A stretch of 64,000 nucleotides of DNA, taken from assembly GCF_003385185.1 (NCBI RefSeq), contig NZ_PQHZ01000005.1:1-64000 (forward strand), in the 5' to 3' direction. How positions within the stretch are numbered: the stretch's first letter is position 1; each line of letters starts with the position of its first letter. Made by a program: the position numbers and the translations under genes. The notes beneath the pieces are model-generated. The model saw only the letters and a list, made by a program, of their open reading frames with translations, made no database searches and was not told the DNA's origin. Below, piece after piece: positions 56,608 to 64,000 of the stretch. Source of the DNA: Amycolatopsis palatopharyngis (lineage in GTDB: Bacteria; Actinomycetota; Actinomycetes; Mycobacteriales; Pseudonocardiaceae).

Positions 56608-57065
56608 GGCGGGGATGTCCCCACCAGCCGCGCCCGGTGTTACTTGGAGTTTTGCCAGGTAGACGTAATCTACTGGCAGCATTTTCTGACGAGGTGTGGT
56701 GGTTACGAGCCCAATACGCAGGGCTGGGCTCGTAACCATTCACACGGAAGCAGAGTGTGGACGGCCCGAGCGGGCTTCGCGGAGCATGGTGAAGAGGTAC
56801 TGGTAACCAAGAGCTGACAACACCCCTGCAGGTTCGGATCGTGTTACGGTCGCCAGGTGACTGCCGGGTCGGCCCAGAGCCAACAGCGCGGAAGGTACCC
56901 GGCCAGAGCGTGACGTCCAGGCGGGCTCGAGGCCCGCCTTATCCGCTCGGCCAGACCGCACCGCACCGCCTCTATCGCGCCGTCTTGCCACAAGGCCGCG
57001 CTCTTCTTTGTCGATCATCATTTTCTCGCGTGCCGCCGCACCGACCCTGGAGTAAACGACACAGC
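56608..57065. other. Non-coding region with several hairpins
   Basis: No gene is supported; open frames crossing it lack third-position bias. It contains TGCCAG-TAGA/TCTA-CTGGCA (56653-56678), a 12-bp perfect stem GGTTACGAGCCC/GGGCTCGTAACC (56701-56712, 56726-56737), and GGCGGGC-TCGAG-GCCCGCC (56920-56938) followed by TTAT. The last looks like a terminator although no gene ends near it. An unannotated small RNA or a remnant insertion is possible. Confidence 0.45.
56920..56938 (+). terminator. Orphan terminator-like hairpin
   Basis: GGCGGGC and GCCCGCC form a 7-bp stem around TCGAG, followed by TTAT. It lies over 300 bases after the cupin stop, so a transcript beginning in between may end here. 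Confidence 0.45.
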
Positions 57066-57908
57066 ATGTCCAACGACTTCGACCACCAGACCATCGACGA
57101 GTTCCGCGCCAATCACGGAAGACTCAGCGGCCTGCTCGGCGAACGCCGCATCATCCTGCTGACCACCACCACCGCGACCGGAGCAACCCGAACCACTCCC
57201 GTCGAATTCCTGCACGACGAGCGCCCCGACGGCGGCCCTCGCATGCTGCTCATCGCGGTAGGCGACGCCGACGACCACCCCGCCTGGTACCACGACCTCG
57301 AAACACATTCCCAGGTCACCGCCGAGACCGGGGTGTTCACCTTGGAGGCCGAAGCCGAGTCCCTCCCGGACGACGAGCGCGACAAGCTATTTGCGCGCGC
57401 TGCCGAAGCGGATCCCACCTGGGCCGACCGCCAAGCCGCCAGCAAACTAAAGATCCCCGTTGTCACGCTCCACCCGGTCGGTGGCGGCCCCAACACCGAC
57501 CGGGAAGGCGACTTCCTCCTACAGATCCACGACGCCTTCCGTCATGAGCTTGCGCTCATCCACAAGGAGGTCGCCACTTCCGGGCCCGGCCTTGGCGCAC
57601 AACTGCGGATCAACTGCCTCAGCCTCTGCCAGGGCCTACAGCACCACCACAACAGCGAAGACGACCAGATGTACCCCGTGGTCGACGAGAAGCACCCCGA
57701 ACTCGCCCCTACGCTGACCCGCCTCCGCCAGGAACACCAGCAGATCGCGGTCCTGCTCGAACAACTGCAGGAGGCCGTCTCGGCGACGGACGCCGATCGG
57801 AGCACCGTGATCGCCGAGGTCGAAAGGCTCACCATCGAACTCGAAGCCCACCTCGACTACGAAGAGCAAGAACTCATTCCGGTCCTCAACCGGATGTCAC
57901 TGACGTAG
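57066..57908 (+). CDS. Nitroreductase (Ddn/DUF385-like) - hemerythrin fusion protein
   Basis: A 280-residue fusion. Residues 1-140 match the F420-dependent Ddn/DUF385 family (FDHQTIDEFRANHGRLSG, RRIILLTTTTATG, HPAWYHDLETHSQVTAE, IPVVTLHPV). Residues about 155-275 are a hemerythrin HHE domain with the iron-ligand pattern AFRHELALIHKE, LQHHHNSEDDQMYPV, RQEHQQIAVLL and LEAHLDYEEQELIPVL. That combines a flavin/F420-type redox domain with a di-iron oxygen- or NO-binding domain. The ATG at 57066 is the first residue with family likeness. The neighbour on the other strand is another hemerythrin. Confidence 0.85.
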   Translation: MSNDFDHQTIDEFRANHGRLSGLLGERRIILLTTTTATGATRTTPVEFLHDERPDGGPRMLLIAVGDADDHPAWYHDLETHSQVTAETGVFTLEAEAESLPDDERDKLFARAAEADPTWADRQAASKLKIPVVTLHPVGGGPNTDREGDFLLQIHDAFRHELALIHKEVATSGPGLGAQLRINCLSLCQGLQHHHNSEDDQMYPVVDEKHPELAPTLTRLRQEHQQIAVLLEQLQEAVSATDADRSTVIAEVERLTIELEAHLDYEEQELIPVLNRMSLT

Positions 57909-58035
57909 GTGGCATGTGCCGCCCGAGAGATCGAGACGGCACATTCGAACCGCGGATCGTGGGGAAACGCCATCGGCGAGTTGGCGATGCCGGCTTCACG
58001 GCGTTGTTGCACGTCAAGGCCTGGTGGCCCCGCTG

Positions 58036-58551
58036 TCAGTCCTCGTCGTCGGCCATCAGGAAGCTGGGCCGGTTCTCCCGCCACTCGGGCACGTCCATGG
58101 AGTTGAGCACGGAGATGAGCTTCTTCTCCTCGTAGATGAAGTGTGTCTGCATGATGGCCGACACCGCGTTCACCTCTTCACGCACCTTCGACGCGGTAGC
58201 CGGGTCCGGGGTCTCCGGAAGGGAACTCAGCAGCTTCCGCAGGTTGCCCAGCAGCCATTCCAGCTGGTTGTGGTCAGTACGGAGGTCCGCGAGCACCTTG
58301 CGCAGTTCGGGGTACTCCTCGGCAATCGCCGGGAACGCAGTCTTGTCCTCGCCGGTGTGGTGCCGGGTCAGTGCCGTGCAGAACGAAAGACAGTGGGCTC
58401 GCAGGTCCCGAGGCGGAACCCCCTTGCCATCGACGTAGTCGTCAATGCTGTCCTGGAGGTCTTCCAGCACCTCGCGGAGCCAGACATGCACTTCGATCAA
58501 CTGCGTGCCGAAGGCGGTGAGGCGATCGCTCGCCTCGGAACGTGCGTCCAT
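58036..58551 (-). CDS. Hemerythrin-domain protein
   Basis: A 171-residue four-helix hemerythrin. Iron-ligand positions are visible in LIEVHVWLREVLEDL, LTRHHTGEDKTAFPAI, RTDHNQLEWLL and QTHFIYEEKKLISVL; the HHxxED core matches that of the fusion gene's C-terminal domain. It probably senses or buffers oxygen, NO or iron in the cytosol. It converges on the fusion gene (gap about 130 bases). The ATG follows a weak purine-rich site. Confidence 0.88.
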   Translation of the reverse strand: MDARSEASDRLTAFGTQLIEVHVWLREVLEDLQDSIDDYVDGKGVPPRDLRAHCLSFCTALTRHHTGEDKTAFPAIAEEYPELRKVLADLRTDHNQLEWLLGNLRKLLSSLPETPDPATASKVREEVNAVSAIMQTHFIYEEKKLISVLNSMDVPEWRENRPSFLMADDED

Positions 58552-58707: not shown

Positions 58708-59880
58708 GTGAGTGAACTCCCGCACGGCGGTTCGGCGGAGGAGGCGTTCGCCGGGGTCGCCGAGGCGTTCCGGGAAAACTTCGCTGTCGGCGCCGAAGTC
58801 GGAGCGGCAGTGTGTGTTTACCACCGCGGCAAGTCTGTTGTGGACCTGTGGGGCGGGTACGCCGATGCGGCTCGAACCGACCCGTGGCGCCCGAACACCC
58901 TCGCGGTGCTGGCATCTCCCACCAAGGCGCTGGTCACCGGTGCCGCGTTGATGCTGGTCGACCGCGGGGTGCTCGAGCTTGACACCCCGATCGCCGAGTA
59001 CTGGCCCGAGTTCGCGGCCGAGGGCAAATCGAAGATCAACCTGCGCATGGTGCTGGCACAGCGCTCCGGTGTCGTGTGCCTCGACCACGACCCGATCACC
59101 TACGAGTACCTGGTCGAGCATGTGCCCATCGCGAACGCGCTGGCCGCGGCCAAGCCGGAATGGGAACCGGACACAGCGCATGGCTACCACGCCACGACCT
59201 TCGGGCACCTGGTGAGCGAGTTGGTCCTCCGTACCACCGGGCGGACCGTAGGACAGTTCATCGCCAGAGAGATCGCGGAACCACTCGGGCTCGACTGCTA
59301 CATCGGCCTGCCCGACCCGGAGTCGGCGCACCTAGCGACCATGCTGGAGTCCAAGGCCGAGGAGTTGATGGCGGGAGCCGAACCCGGAGATGAACTGGCC
59401 ATGCTGGTCGCGCTCGGTGACCCCAGTTCGCTGACCTTCCGCGCGGCGCTCGGCAGCATGGCGCTGACCGGTGCGGCCGACCCGAAGGTGGAAAACCCGT
59501 CCTACGACGGGCTGTCCAGTGCGCAGTCGCTCGCCCGGTTCTACGCCGCGCTCATCGGCGAGGTGGACGGTTTTCGTATGCTCACCCCGGAAACCGTCGA
59601 CGAGCTGCGCAAGCCACACTCGAGCGGCATCTGCAAGGTCACGCTGCTGCCGCGCTCCTGGGGCCTGGGCTTCAATTTGCCGAACGGGCCGGTTTTCCCG
59701 CCATCAGTCGGCTTGGACAGCGCATTCGGACTCGCCGGCGCGAACGGCAACTTCACCTTCGCCGATCCTGAGCACGAACTGGGTTTCGCGTATGTCCAGA
59801 ACAGCGGGGCGCGAGGTATCGGCCACATAGAAGACCGGGCGCGGCGACTGACCGAAGCGGTGTACTCCGCGTTGCGTTGA
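58708..59880 (+). CDS. Class C beta-lactamase-like serine hydrolase (EstB/family VIII type)
   Basis: A 390-residue hydrolase. The nucleophile motif SPTK (about residues 71-74) provides the S-x-x-K, and the YxN-equivalent tyrosine lies in GYHATTFGHLV. Family members are carboxylesterases or lipases (EstB-like) rather than true beta-lactamases. AAGGG lies nine bases before the GTG. The gene converges on the polyketide genes; a strong hairpin lies between. Tailoring of the polyketide is possible but equally it may be unrelated. Confidence 0.88.
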   Translation: MSELPHGGSAEEAFAGVAEAFRENFAVGAEVGAAVCVYHRGKSVVDLWGGYADAARTDPWRPNTLAVLASPTKALVTGAALMLVDRGVLELDTPIAEYWPEFAAEGKSKINLRMVLAQRSGVVCLDHDPITYEYLVEHVPIANALAAAKPEWEPDTAHGYHATTFGHLVSELVLRTTGRTVGQFIAREIAEPLGLDCYIGLPDPESAHLATMLESKAEELMAGAEPGDELAMLVALGDPSSLTFRAALGSMALTGAADPKVENPSYDGLSSAQSLARFYAALIGEVDGFRMLTPETVDELRKPHSSGICKVTLLPRSWGLGFNLPNGPVFPPSVGLDSAFGLAGANGNFTFADPEHELGFAYVQNSGARGIGHIEDRARRLTEAVYSALR

Positions 59881-59941: not shown

Positions 59942-61630
59942 TCAGGAATAGCTGACCGGGGCAGGCGGTTGCTTGTCGAACCAGTGCGAGCGGCGACGGA
60001 AAGGGGACCCGGGCAGGTTCGCACGCGCAGGTCGGGTGTCCCACGATGACGTCCAATCCACGGAATCGCCACGTAACCACGCCTGCACGAGTGGAGAGTC
60101 GACAGTGGACGGCGACTTCCCGGACGCGACCTCGTCCAGCAACTGCCGGAGTTCCGCGAGGTCGTCGACGACCAGCACAGACCGCGACGCGTGCGCATGC
60201 CGGCTGGTCTGCAGGGTCCACGCCAGCGAAGGCAGGCTCGGCGGCGCGCCGCCATCCAACTCGGCCAACAGATTCGCCGCCAGCCGCGCCAAGCATTCCT
60301 CGTCCTGCGCCGAGAGCGGTACAACGTACCGGCCCTGCTCGGGATCCACTGTGGATTCAGGTGCTTCCTCGAGCAGCACGTGCGAGATCCCGCCACCAAG
60401 GCCGAAGGAGTTCACCCCGGCCATCCGCGCGACCTCGCCGCGCGGCCACGGTACTTCTTCCACCGAAATCGCTACATCGGTGCCCTCGATCGGCAGCTTG
60501 TGATCGGCCTCGGTCAGTCCCGCGATCCGCGGGATCCTCCCGTACTTGAGCACCAGTACGGCCTTGACCACACCCATCAGTCCGGATGCTGCCTCGAGGT
60601 GGCCGATGTTGGCCTTGATCGAGCCGACCCACACCTTGCCGCCCGGTCCCGCAGGCGCGGTCGAACCTGCCAGCGCCTCGGCGAGGGCCGCGACTTCGAC
60701 GGCGTCACCGCTCGGGGTGCCGGAACCATGCGCTTCCAGGTACCCAAGCGCACCGACCGCACATCCCGCGGCCGCGGCGGTCTTGCGCATGAGCAGCACC
60801 TGCGAATCACTGTCGGTACCGGTGAGTCCACCACCCCTGGCGTTGTGTGCCGACTCCGCACCACGAATGACCGCGTGCACCGGATCACCGTCCGCCAGCG
60901 CGCGGTCCAACCGCTTGAGCAGCACGCACGCGCCGCCCTCGCCGCGGATGTAGCCATCTCGGTCCGGGCCGAACGGTACCGACTCACCGGTCGGTGACAG
61001 CGCTCCGCCACGGAATGCGGTGTTCGCGTAGAACCCGTTGCTGATCACGCTCGGAGTCCCGACCAGCGCCATCGGGTATTCGTCCCTTCGGAGCCCTTGC
61101 ACTGCGATGCCGAGCGCCGACAGACTCGACGAGCAGGCCGAGTCGATCACCATACTCGGCCCGGTCCAGCCGAACTGGTACGAGACGCGGTTCGCGCTGA
61201 ACGCCGTCATCGCGCCGGGAAATGCCGCGCTGTCGGCCCGTCCCTTCGCATTGATCCGCTCCCGGTAGTCAGACATGAACGAGCCGACGAACACCCCGAC
61301 CTGGGCCCCGTCGAGCTGGTCCGGATCGAGCCCGGCGTTCTCCACCGCGTGGTAAGCCAACTCGAGCATGATCCGGTGCTGCGGGTCCATCCAGGCCGCC
61401 ATTCGCGGCGAGATGCCGAAGAAGCGAGCGTCGAACATGTCGATTCGCTCGAGCAGCGACGCCGTGGGCGGGTTCTCCGGTCCGGTTCCCGGGTCGAGAC
61501 CGTACCAGCGATCCTCGGGTACCGAGGTGAACCGACGCTCGGCTCGGCTCAGCAGATCCCACAGCTCGGCCAACGTCTCCACACCTGCCGCGCGCACGGA
61601 CATGCCGATGATGGCGATCGGCTCGTTCAT
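59942..61630 (-). CDS. Stand-alone ketosynthase of a trans-AT polyketide synthase
   Basis: A 562-residue protein. Residues 1-440 are a complete beta-ketoacyl synthase with Cys166 in DSACSSSLS, His301 in EAHGSGT and His344 in IKANIGHLE. Residues about 445-560 are the post-KS linker ending LPGSPFRRRSHWF, the usual trans-AT module boundary motif. No AT, ACP, KR or docking domain follows, so it works with carrier proteins encoded elsewhere. The active Cys is kept, unlike the decarboxylating KS of beta-branching cassettes, where it is usually Ser. It is the last of four coupled genes (ATGA overlap with the AT gene). Confidence 0.9.
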   Translation of the reverse strand: MNEPIAIIGMSVRAAGVETLAELWDLLSRAERRFTSVPEDRWYGLDPGTGPENPPTASLLERIDMFDARFFGISPRMAAWMDPQHRIMLELAYHAVENAGLDPDQLDGAQVGVFVGSFMSDYRERINAKGRADSAAFPGAMTAFSANRVSYQFGWTGPSMVIDSACSSSLSALGIAVQGLRRDEYPMALVGTPSVISNGFYANTAFRGGALSPTGESVPFGPDRDGYIRGEGGACVLLKRLDRALADGDPVHAVIRGAESAHNARGGGLTGTDSDSQVLLMRKTAAAAGCAVGALGYLEAHGSGTPSGDAVEVAALAEALAGSTAPAGPGGKVWVGSIKANIGHLEAASGLMGVVKAVLVLKYGRIPRIAGLTEADHKLPIEGTDVAISVEEVPWPRGEVARMAGVNSFGLGGGISHVLLEEAPESTVDPEQGRYVVPLSAQDEECLARLAANLLAELDGGAPPSLPSLAWTLQTSRHAHASRSVLVVDDLAELRQLLDEVASGKSPSTVDSPLVQAWLRGDSVDWTSSWDTRPARANLPGSPFRRRSHWFDKQPPAPVSYS

Positions 61631-62481
61631 CGAAGGCCTCCGATCCGGGAATGGTGCCGCTGGATCTGTCTGGTGAGTGTCGTGAGGGTCGCGCCATATG
61701 CCTCGTGAAAGTGCACCCCCGAACCAAGCAGGCCCTCGATCGACTGGCTCCAGAGCACGGGATGGGTGATCTGCTCGGTCAGGTCCACGACGAGGCTCTC
61801 CGACTCGTGGGGCCGCGCATGGCGGTTGGCGATCACGGGGATGCGCGGAGCATGCAGCCGGGCAGAGGCGCGCCGCAGGAGTTCACCGAAGGCCTTCGCC
61901 GCGCCCGCCATATGCCTCGTGTGAAACGGACCGCTGATCAGCAGTGGCCGGACTCTCAGTGCGCCTGCGCCCCACATCGCCGCGACGACATCGCCCCCAT
62001 CACCTGGCGCGGCAACAACCACGTTCGCAGGTCCGTTGAATGCGGCGATACTTGCTTGAAGGTCGTCCCTGGCATTCAGCACGTCCTCGACCGCCTCCGC
62101 GGACAAGCCCATCACCACAGTCATCGAACCTTCGACGGCATCCGTCAGCCGGGCCCGTTCCCGCACCAGTTCCAACCCGGTTGCGAAATCGAAGACACCC
62201 GCCGCCTCGAGCGCGTTGTATTCGCCAAGACTGTGCCCCAAGTAAACATCCGCAGGGCCGTCCATCGCGCGCCTGGCGAGTGCGTTGACGACGTAGATCG
62301 CGGGCTGGGAGAACCGGGTCCGACCCAGTCGCCCGCCCGGATCGCCGACGCAGAGCTCACGGATCGAATAGCCCAAGATCTCGTCCGCCTGTTCCACCAG
62401 CTCCGGGAAACGGTCGAACAGCTCGGCGCCCATCCCCGTACGTTGAGTACCCTGCCCGGCGAAGAGAACCACCCGCGTCAT
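61627..62481 (-). CDS. Discrete malonyl-type acyltransferase (trans-AT)
   Basis: A 284-residue free-standing acyltransferase. The entry motif is FAGQGTQRTGMG, then ILGYSIRELC, typical of trans-acting ATs; the nucleophile Ser84 is in GHSLGEYNALEAAG followed by FDFATG, and the second catalytic residue His187 lies in PFHTRHM. It would load malonyl units onto carrier domains in trans. Its ATG overlaps the ECH2 stop and its stop overlaps the ketosynthase ATG. Confidence 0.92.
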   Translation of the reverse strand: MTRVVLFAGQGTQRTGMGAELFDRFPELVEQADEILGYSIRELCVGDPGGRLGRTRFSQPAIYVVNALARRAMDGPADVYLGHSLGEYNALEAAGVFDFATGLELVRERARLTDAVEGSMTVVMGLSAEAVEDVLNARDDLQASIAAFNGPANVVVAAPGDGGDVVAAMWGAGALRVRPLLISGPFHTRHMAGAAKAFGELLRRASARLHAPRIPVIANRHARPHESESLVVDLTEQITHPVLWSQSIEGLLGSGVHFHEAYGATLTTLTRQIQRHHSRIGGLR

Positions 62482-63233
62482 GACCCCACCACCGGCCGGT
62501 CGGCGTACAGCGCCTGGATCCGCCGTCTGGCCTCGGCACTGGAGATCGTCGCCTGATGGTCCGGAATCTCCCGCGCGTGCGCGGCCTGGGCCTGCCCGCC
62601 CACCTGTTCGCGCAGCTGCGCCTTGAGCCGCTCGACGGCCTCACGCGGGGCCTGCGCGATGCGCAACGCGGTCCGCTGCGTCTGGGCGACAACGTTGCCG
62701 TCCGCGGTCACCCGGACACCCGCGCCACGATCGGCGAGCTCGCGTCCGAGATAGCTGCGGCCCGAGTACAGCAGCTCTGTGCCCAGTGCCATGCCCAGCT
62801 TGGCAGGCAGCAGGTACGTGGCTCCCAGCGCGGGCGTGAACCCGTAGGTGAGGAAGTTGGCGGCGTAGCGGGAGCTCTCGCTGAGCACGGTCACGTCGCA
62901 GTAGAGCGCGAGGAGGAACCCGCCGCCAAGCGCATGTCCCTGTGCGGCGGCGAGCACCGGCACCGGGCAGCCGAGCACGGCGTTCAGAAACTCCCACACC
63001 CCGTCGACCCGGTGCTCTCGTGAGCCGAGCATCTGCTCGGCCGATCCTCCCGCACAGAAGATCTCGGGGAGTCCTTCCAGTACCACGGCTCGTACGTCCG
63101 GCGCGCCACCCGCCTGTTCCAGAGCCGCGATGGTCCCTGCACGCAGTTCGGGTGATAGCCGGTTCTGCCCGGTGGCGTCGTCCATCCGGACGGTCGCGAC
63201 GGGAGCGGCCATATCGAGCGTAACCACACTCAC
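62478..63233 (-). CDS. Enoyl-CoA hydratase-family protein, PksI/ECH2-like (decarboxylase role expected)
   Basis: A 251-residue crotonase-fold protein. The oxyanion motif LPEIFCAGGSAEQM and the second loop GHALGGGFLLALYCDVTVL, then YGFTPALGATYLLP, resemble the ECH2 (PksI/CurF-type) proteins that decarboxylate 3-methylglutaconyl-ACP in beta-branching. GTG 63233 overlaps the neighbour's stop (GTGA); the longer frame upstream is the shadow of the other hydratase. The last 60 residues are Gln/Arg-rich helices. Assignment is by fold and neighbours, not by a tested motif. Confidence 0.82.
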   Translation of the reverse strand: MSVVTLDMAAPVATVRMDDATGQNRLSPELRAGTIAALEQAGGAPDVRAVVLEGLPEIFCAGGSAEQMLGSREHRVDGVWEFLNAVLGCPVPVLAAAQGHALGGGFLLALYCDVTVLSESSRYAANFLTYGFTPALGATYLLPAKLGMALGTELLYSGRSYLGRELADRGAGVRVTADGNVVAQTQRTALRIAQAPREAVERLKAQLREQVGGQAQAAHAREIPDHQATISSAEARRRIQALYADRPVVGS

Positions 63234-63967
63234 GCGATCAACCCCTGTTTCCGCAAACCGGACAGCCGCTCGTGAACCGCCTGGTCCGCCAGTCGTCTTC
63301 CGAGAACCTCCATGATCAGTTCGTCGCGCCGCACCGGAGGAGCCAGTTCGGCGTAGTACTCCTTGAGTGCGAGCAGCGCGGACGGATCGGCAGCTCGCAG
63401 CTTGCGCAGGATGCGCCGCAGCTCCGCCTCGTCGCCGTATACGTCGGCGAGGCCCATCGACACCGCTTCCGCGCCGGACAGCTCGCGCGCGGTCAGCGCC
63501 AGCCCGAACGCCGAGTGGTGGCCGGTCCGCCGCGCCAGCACGGGCAGGACCGCGGCGGGCACGAGGCCAAGCAGGACCTCGGTCATCCGGAACGTGGCCC
63601 GTTCCCCGGCAACCACCTGATCGCACGCCGCCAACAGGCCGACTCCGCCACCGAGTGCAGCCCCTTCCACGAGCGCGATCGTCACCAGGCGCGACGTGGC
63701 GATCCGATGAAGCAGATCACCGAGCGCAACGATCAGCCGGCGCCACGTGGTCTCGATCGCGTCCAGCTCCATCCCCGCGCAGAATGTGTCACCTCCGGCC
63801 GCGAGCACGAGTACCTGTACGGCGGCGGTGGACTCGGCATCGGCAAGCGCGTCGCCCAGTTCGGTGAGCATCTCCTCGGAGAGCCGATTGTGCGTATCCG
63901 GGCAGGACAACGTCAAACGCGCGACCGGCGGTCGCGTAATGTCCAGTTCCACTCGCTTCATCGCCAC
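63230..63967 (-). CDS. Enoyl-CoA hydratase-family protein, PksH/ECH1-like (dehydratase role expected)
   Basis: A 245-residue crotonase-fold protein. DTFCAGMELDAIETTW and VEGAALGGGVGLLAACDQVVA form the oxyanion hole, and LLGLVPAAVLPVLARRTG is the following loop; similar segments occur in ECH1 (PksH/CurE-type) dehydratases of HMG-ACP. It is the first gene of the coupled set visible here; an HMG synthase homologue and ACP would be expected just beyond the right edge. Only 33 bases remain after its start. Confidence 0.82.
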   Translation of the reverse strand: MAMKRVELDITRPPVARLTLSCPDTHNRLSEEMLTELGDALADAESTAAVQVLVLAAGGDTFCAGMELDAIETTWRRLIVALGDLLHRIATSRLVTIALVEGAALGGGVGLLAACDQVVAGERATFRMTEVLLGLVPAAVLPVLARRTGHHSAFGLALTARELSGAEAVSMGLADVYGDEAELRRILRKLRAADPSALLALKEYYAELAPPVRRDELIMEVLGRRLADQAVHERLSGLRKQGLIA

Positions 63968-64000
63968 TCGTAACCCCGATGGAATTTCTCGACTCCGGTC

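Follow-up and report, generated by a model that had tools for sequence, protein, structure and literature searches.

A putative HMG-synthase beta-alkylation cassette within an aromatic type II polyketide synthase operon of Amycolatopsis palatopharyngis

Cassettes built around a 3-hydroxy-3-methylglutaryl (HMG) synthase (HMGS) include PksG-PksH-PksI, CurD-CurF and VirC-VirD-VirE, which take acetyl from a decarboxylating ketosynthase (KS) and act on the acyl carrier proteins (ACPs) of modular polyketide synthases (PKSs) (PMC10006238). The LnmK-LnmL-LnmM set of leinamycin and its largimycin counterpart LrgK-LrgL-LrgM1 serve acyltransferase (AT)-less modular hybrids of PKS and non-ribosomal peptide synthetase (NRPS), and in largimycin the LnmK-type enzymes are assigned the making of propionyl-ACP for this kind of HMGS (PMC9396626). 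HMGS-dependent beta-branching has been documented for modular PKSs; NaPDoS2 links the KSs of HMGS cassettes to trans-AT PKSs (PMC9582728). Among aromatic type II PKSs, DpsC, which has a Ser-His-Asp triad, primes daunorubicin with propionate, and DpsC-like enzymes, such as HedS of hedamycin, can pass primers to the ACP of a KS/chain-length factor (CLF) pair (PMC12664062); the hexadienoyl primer of hedamycin is itself built by the multidomain type I PKS proteins HedT and HedU (PMC9570651). Here we describe an operon of Amycolatopsis palatopharyngis that crosses the edge of a 64,000-nucleotide stretch (contig NZ_PQHZ01000005.1, here C77; hereafter the window), and in which an HMGS cassette is embedded among aromatic type II PKS genes.

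We interpret the locus as an aromatic type II PKS cluster that incorporates an HMGS beta-alkylation cassette, which would make a branched starter, and put the probability of this reading at about one in two. Sequence evidence establishes the enzymes, the majority of the catalytic residues examined, the arrangement in one coupled operon and the occurrence of that operon in two further species.

Operon architecture and conservation

The window comprises bases 1-64000 of C77, and positions beyond 64,000 are contig coordinates that continue its numbering. The source genome is a 7.0-Mb draft in 131 contigs; C77 spans 232,050 bases, extends 168 kb past the window edge and was examined to base 164,000. 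Twelve minus-strand genes form the operon, running from a DpsC-like KSIII to a stand-alone modular-type ketosynthase, KSmod (Table 1). Neighboring genes overlap by 4 bases at seven of the 11 junctions and by 1 base at two, while the other two show gaps of 18 and 20 bases, an arrangement suggesting that the minimal aromatic PKS is coupled in translation to the branching cassette as a single unit. ECH1 could start at GTG 63967 or ATG 63961, the latter being likelier from its 4-base overlap with the HMGS gene. A long frame upstream of 63233 is not part of ECH2.

A scan of 84,980 species genomes for the HMGS, made with short exact patterns that detect close relatives only, returned 12 loci. The hybrid operon is present in two of them, from Saccharopolyspora shandongensis (L008, L033, L034; HMGS 80%) and Streptomyces solincola T5 (L009, L035-L037; 73%). 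With AT1 excepted, the order KSIII-ACPb-KS-alpha-CLF-ACPa-LnmK-ACPd-HMGS-ECH1-ECH2-KSmod is common to all three species. Comparison with S. shandongensis by a simple counting method (dS 0.6-1.0) gives dN/dS values of 0.12-0.25 for seven of the eight genes compared and 0.44 for ECH1. Two unrelated clusters lying side by side were rejected on the basis of the gene overlaps and the gene order kept in two other species.

A preliminary description of the window had placed the last four genes, ECH1 through KSmod, at the margin of a trans-AT polyketide cluster that carries a beta-branching cassette. The genes themselves are real, with intact frames and 4-base overlaps at all three of their junctions, and profile and structure-relative matches bear out the families named: a KS with a modular-type linker, a discrete AT and two distinct crotonases. 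Their membership in an HMGS beta-branching cassette also holds, as an HMGS and a donor-type ACP lie immediately right of the window. What does not hold is the modular trans-AT setting. The remaining genes were expected past 64,000, and HMGS (63958-65190) and ACP (65190-65450) are indeed found there, well within the roughly 60 kb over which the forecast was to be judged; the forecast modular PKS is absent from C77. A decarboxylating KS, also anticipated to the right, was not seen on C77, where an LnmK-type enzyme is present instead.

An HMGS cassette, a discrete AT and a KS carrying both a modular linker and a post-AT tail are all features that a trans-AT cluster would explain. Only five of the 20 ketosynthase matches in the genome lie on C77, however, in frames of 431-646 amino acids, none of them module-sized; the operon carries a type II minimal PKS, and frames past ~95 kb appear housekeeping-like by eye. 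Long PKS frames sit on other contigs (C50, C48 and C64). We therefore rejected the modular trans-AT reading, which we consider very improbable.

Inspection of the type II genes reveals a complete aromatic set. KS-alpha1 scores 642 bits against the actinorhodin KS (next match, 317), and the actinorhodin CLF is the sole match of CLF1 at E <= 1e-60. Both KS-alpha1 and KS-alpha2, the latter from a second KS/CLF pair, keep the Cys-His-His motifs, and both CLF1 and CLF2 carry the chain-length-factor Gln. A discrete ACP, a ketoreductase and an aromatase/cyclase complete the set, whose product we take to be aromatic.

The branching cassette and its donor

The HMGS, ECH1 and ECH2 belong to the same families as their counterparts in the Pks, Cur and Vir cassettes. 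The HMGS has 8s81, CurD and PksG as its nearest solved relatives, falls short of the cut-off of TIGR01835, the primary-metabolism model (250 versus 360 bits), and carries SESGV, KQACY and HTPF motifs, which we take to hold the catalytic Glu, Cys and His. The two crotonase frames match ECH_1 at E values of 2.3e-44 and 1.3e-35. The best solved relative of ECH1 is 8ahq, a structure cited in a virginiamycin M beta-methylation paper, in the part on ACP5b and the ECH1 VirD (PMC10006238). ECH2 exceeds the cut-off of the PksI/CurF family PRK07110 (NCBIfam; 226 versus 215 bits), has PDB matches to 4q1k, 4q1g and 2q2x, and conserves the equivalent of PksI His230, a residue that matters in PksI (PMC7501309). 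AT1 matches Acyl_transf_1 (E 3.5e-19) and is 41-46% identical to ATs of the HMGS loci L015-L017.

Inspection of the upstream genes suggests a different donor from that of the Pks, Cur and Vir cassettes. LnmK matches PF18238 (E 5.6e-76) and TIGR04098 (265.7 bits, curated cut-off 100), is the single match to its family in the genome, and fits the double hot-dog LnmK fold with a Tyr aligned to that of LnmK, presumably the catalytic Tyr62. ACPd is 44-54% identical to the ACP adjoining HMGS in the LnmK loci L010-L014. A tree built from 23 HMGS rows places the 18 from LnmK loci and the five from loci without LnmK on opposite sides of one 99/98 branch, with the source HMGS on the LnmK side. Because 10 of those 18 rows had been retrieved through LnmK, the proportion of rows from LnmK loci follows from how they were gathered, but the split does not. 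The donor is probably propionyl-ACP because this HMGS groups with those found beside LnmK, and its maker is most likely the LnmK-type enzyme rather than a decarboxylating KS. The latter was rejected for C77, where the only KSs lacking Cys are the two Gln-type CLFs. The branch would then be ethyl, if ECH2 decarboxylates.

The order of LnmK-type enzyme, donor ACP and HMGS is shared with leinamycin and largimycin, as is the side of the HMGS tree (PMC9396626). In contrast to those sets, the genes here stand with a type II PKS, and one operon adds ECH1, a PksI-like ECH2, a discrete ACP and a lone KS.

Starter assembly and competing roles

KSmod matches the ketosynthase profile (E 2.6e-64) and the modular KS linker PF22336 (39.3 bits, cut-off 27), has intact Cys-His-His motifs and is accompanied by orthologues in S. 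shandongensis (75%) and S. solincola (73%). Its top relative beyond these, at 44%, is a KS near an HMGS in Nocardia panacis (L019:5468-8521), where lipoyl, 2-oxoacid-dehydrogenase acyltransferase and ACP domains precede the KS in the same protein; judging from these domains, the protein looks like a loading device. KSIII is best matched by DpsC (332 bits versus 234 for CerJ), and ChlB3 was also matched. Its Ser aligns with DpsC Ser118, and the His and Asp of a GHLG-GD stretch are aligned in the KASIII fold; in our reading, this stretch holds the equivalents of DpsC His297 and Asp302.

A branched primer is favored because the relative of KSmod is loading-like, DpsC-like priming has a precedent in hedamycin, and ACPa is discrete. 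As in hedamycin, a type I-like KS would make a non-acetate primer that a DpsC-like enzyme passes to KS/CLF; unlike hedamycin, a lone KS and an HMGS cassette replace the multidomain type I PKSs, and a branched primer is expected for that reason. The likeness to daunorubicin DpsC/DpsD lies in KSIII, with its Ser kept, and in AT2, a discrete PKS-type AT. The primer of daunorubicin is plain propionyl, and we know of no HMGS cassette in that system.

In the proposed pathway, LnmK would load methylmalonyl and decarboxylate it to propionyl on ACPd, and KSmod, with AT1 or another AT, would join a short starter to malonyl on ACPa by condensation, generating a beta-ketoacyl-ACP. HMGS would add the propionyl carbanion to the beta-ketone, after which dehydration by ECH1 and decarboxylation by ECH2 would yield a short beta-ethyl, alpha,beta-unsaturated acyl chain. 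KSIII, with AT2, would hand this branched primer to KS-alpha/CLF for synthesis of an aromatic skeleton, which may then be reduced, cyclised, oxidised, O-methylated and glycosylated with a dimethylamino-deoxysugar, presumably a 3-(dimethylamino)-deoxyhexose.

Several observations weigh against a branched starter. In a genome of the same taxonomic family (G172, L050:8907-15025), LnmK and an ACP adjoin a type II KS-alpha (69% to KS-alpha2), CLF, ACP and AT, and the 60 kb read there hold no match for HMGS, ECH, KSmod or KSIII. LnmK in that locus may only supply a propionyl primer, and LnmK beside a type II PKS alone therefore does not mean branching. ECH1, moreover, lacks the Asp68 equivalent of PksH, with Glu at this position here, Ala in both sister clusters and Ser in a cassette of genome G034; the equivalent of Glu137, which is essential in PksH, is conserved, and a PksH-D68A mutant is still partly active (PMC7501309). 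Both the G172 locus and the loss of Asp68, together with DpsC priming of daunorubicin, speak for an account in which LnmK supplies propionyl as a plain primer while HMGS and the ECH enzymes have no activity or give a minor by-product. We regard this account as improbable, given that HMGS and ECH2 retain the residues checked and that HMGS, ECH2, LnmK and KSmod are kept in both sister operons, with dN/dS values of 0.15-0.25 against S. shandongensis.

Other points against the branched starter concern individual components. Neither sister cluster (L008 and L009) holds a match for AT1, which is therefore, by this comparison, not needed in general. AT2 has no match in S. shandongensis. ACPa as the acceptor is a guess from operon position; it carries no Trp flag, which is likewise missing in the leinamycin and virginiamycin acceptor ACPs, and an ACPa-like ACP also adjoins the G034 cassette. 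In a KS tree of 37 rows, from which three weak ones of the 40 collected had been dropped, KSmod and its two orthologues occupy their own branch, compatible with either a cis-AT or a trans-AT affiliation. No role is assigned to the second KS/CLF pair, and S. solincola lacks it: the stretches read from this species show a single pair, with no second one between the flanking SDR and glycosyltransferase genes. In the KS-alpha tree, the two pairs separate earlier than S. shandongensis and S. solincola diverge from the source genome, so S. solincola may have lost one. Finally, the sugar ketoreductase (NAD-epimerase family, C77:80929-81908 = L007:5829-6808) is in two frames, and its halves share one frame in three relatives (L033, L037, L066); the break is either an assembly error of the draft or a sign that the cluster no longer works fully.

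The strongest rival to the branched starter, which we hold to be unlikely, has the beta-branched short acyl chain attached as an ester to the sugar or aglycone, either by LovD-like proteins of the beta-lactamase family or by KSIII acting in the manner of the acyltransferases CerJ and ChlB3, both of which it matches. Two beta-lactamase-family proteins with SxxK and GYH motifs are found in the cluster. One of them, a probable cluster member, lies directly next to KSmod both here and in S. shandongensis (L008) and one gene off in S. solincola (L009); beta-lactamase-family proteins have no match in the 60 kb around L050, itself without HMGS and KSmod. KSIII is nevertheless nearer to the primer enzyme DpsC than to CerJ, the HMGS genes lie in the operon of the minimal PKS rather than beside the beta-lactamase-family or sugar genes, and serine hydrolases of this family are common and may be unrelated.

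HMGS might also act on a later beta-keto group, in a growing or full-length chain on ACPb or ACPc, rather than on the starter. Those ACPs carry the type II chain, and operon coupling ties HMGS equally to KS-alpha and to KSmod. This would leave no role for KSmod, ACPa and AT1, and a poly-keto chain is normally shielded by KS-alpha/CLF until release; we accordingly give it little credence.

Surrounding genes, related loci and novelty

The operon is flanked by tailoring, sugar and regulatory genes (Table 1). In the stretches of S. shandongensis that were read, a second KS/CLF/ACP set, sugar genes and a Streptomyces antibiotic regulatory protein (SARP) are present, and no match was found for TylF or the first SnoaL-like gene. 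Those of S. solincola hold sugar genes, with no match for TylF or SARP. Pluramycins, anthracyclines and trioxacarcins, considered as products, gave no match.

Table 1. Features of the operon and its surroundings on C77.
Feature	Coordinates	Strand	Remarks
Beta-lactamase-family (LovD/esterase-like) protein	58708..59880	+	adjoins KSmod; SxxK motif
KSmod	59942-61630	-	stand-alone modular-type KS with linker and post-AT tail; last in transcription order
AT1	61627-62481	-	discrete AT, trans-AT/FabD kind
ECH2	62478-63233	-	PksI/CurF-like decarboxylase
ECH1	63230-63961 (63967 with GTG start)	-	dehydratase-like crotonase
HMGS	63958-65190	-	3' end (63958..64000) in window, cut by window edge
ACPd	65190-65450	-	donor-type ACP, PF00550
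LnmK	65450-66394	-	PF18238, TIGR04098
ACPa	66391-66651	-	discrete ACP, candidate acceptor
CLF1	66670-67875	-	actinorhodin CLF match
KS-alpha1	67872-69140	-	actinorhodin KS match
ACPb	69137-69424	-	discrete ACP
KSIII	69445-70524	-	first in transcription order; DpsC-like
AT2	70640-71638	+	discrete PKS-type AT
Ketoreductase	71599-72372	+	
Luciferase-like oxidoreductase	72407-73441	+	
SnoaL-like (first)	73583-74125	-	
Two-domain aromatase/cyclase	74081-75034	+	
TylF-type methyltransferase	75221-76027	-	
Short-chain dehydrogenase/reductase (SDR)	76062-76844	-	
ACPc	76871-77158	-	
CLF2	77148-78353	-	62% to CLF1
KS-alpha2	78350-79681	-	71% to KS-alpha1
Glycosyltransferases	79810-80943 and 87156-88472	+	
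Sugar genes			between both glycosyltransferases: NAD-epimerase family (two frames), 3,5-epimerase, methyltransferase, DegT aminotransferase, NDP-hexose 2,3-dehydratase
Second beta-lactamase-family protein, hemerythrin, F420H2-quinone reductase, second SnoaL-like			after sugar genes
Metallo-beta-lactamase fold, SARP-type regulator, acyl-CoA-dehydrogenase-like			further on

To place the cassette among relatives, we counted its components in genomes that include the source. Among 398 relatives, LnmK is matched in 17 (weakly in two), HMGS (E <= 1e-60) in 25 and aromatic-type KS-alpha (E <= 1e-150) in 159; HMGS also occurs in five of 394 genomes drawn from the class. Among the matches listed, which include no place for a KS-alpha of G112, G219, G276, G322 or G383, none of the 24 other HMGS genomes has a KS-alpha within 250 kb of HMGS; the 20-kb stretches around LnmK in G219 and G322 hold no close KS-alpha. 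Stretches from 14 relatives (L038-L051) contain HMGS in 10 cases, and in one (L050) LnmK adjoins a type II KS/CLF without HMGS. Within the HMGS scan, loci L010-L014 have LnmK and no match for ECH1 or ECH2 in the stretch read, and L015-L019 have HMGS without LnmK.

The component families are known; their wiring appears to be new. A text search of a 2025 type II PKS review returned no occurrence of 'HMG' (PMC12664062), and the open-access literature, to which our search was confined, yielded no HMGS cassette or LnmK-HMGS system in an aromatic type II PKS. The hybrid operon points to an unrecorded route to branched ring compounds. We see an even chance that HMGS-cassette beta-branching is not confined to modular PKSs, and that an LnmK/propionyl-type cassette with a lone KS and a discrete ACP makes beta-ethyl primers for a type II PKS, defining a family of branched, aminosugar-bearing aromatic polyketides in Saccharopolyspora and Streptomyces. 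If so, the conserved natural pairing of HMGS chemistry with a type II aromatic PKS would open a new way of diversifying primers. It would also offer a compact set of discrete proteins in which the choice of acceptor ACP by HMGS is directly testable, and a marker with which to mine genomes for branched aromatic products.

A second non-modular HMGS cassette was observed in a genome of the same genus (G034, L043:865-10509), with LnmK, ACP, HMGS, ECH1, ECH2 and an ACPa-like ACP. It adjoins two FabF-like ketosynthases with the Cys motif and lies near genes for a class I/II aminotransferase-fold enzyme, a catechol dioxygenase and an Fe-alcohol dehydrogenase. LnmK without HMGS was seen near aldolase- and dehydrogenase-like genes in L038:4965-13055 (G070) and L039 (G020), the former additionally with ACP and NRPS-like genes (the neighboring genes were named by eye). 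Hemerythrin and F420H2-quinone-reductase domains occur at both borders of the cluster described here (window 56841-58551 and C77:88542-89583), and at the left border they are fused in one frame (56841-57908).

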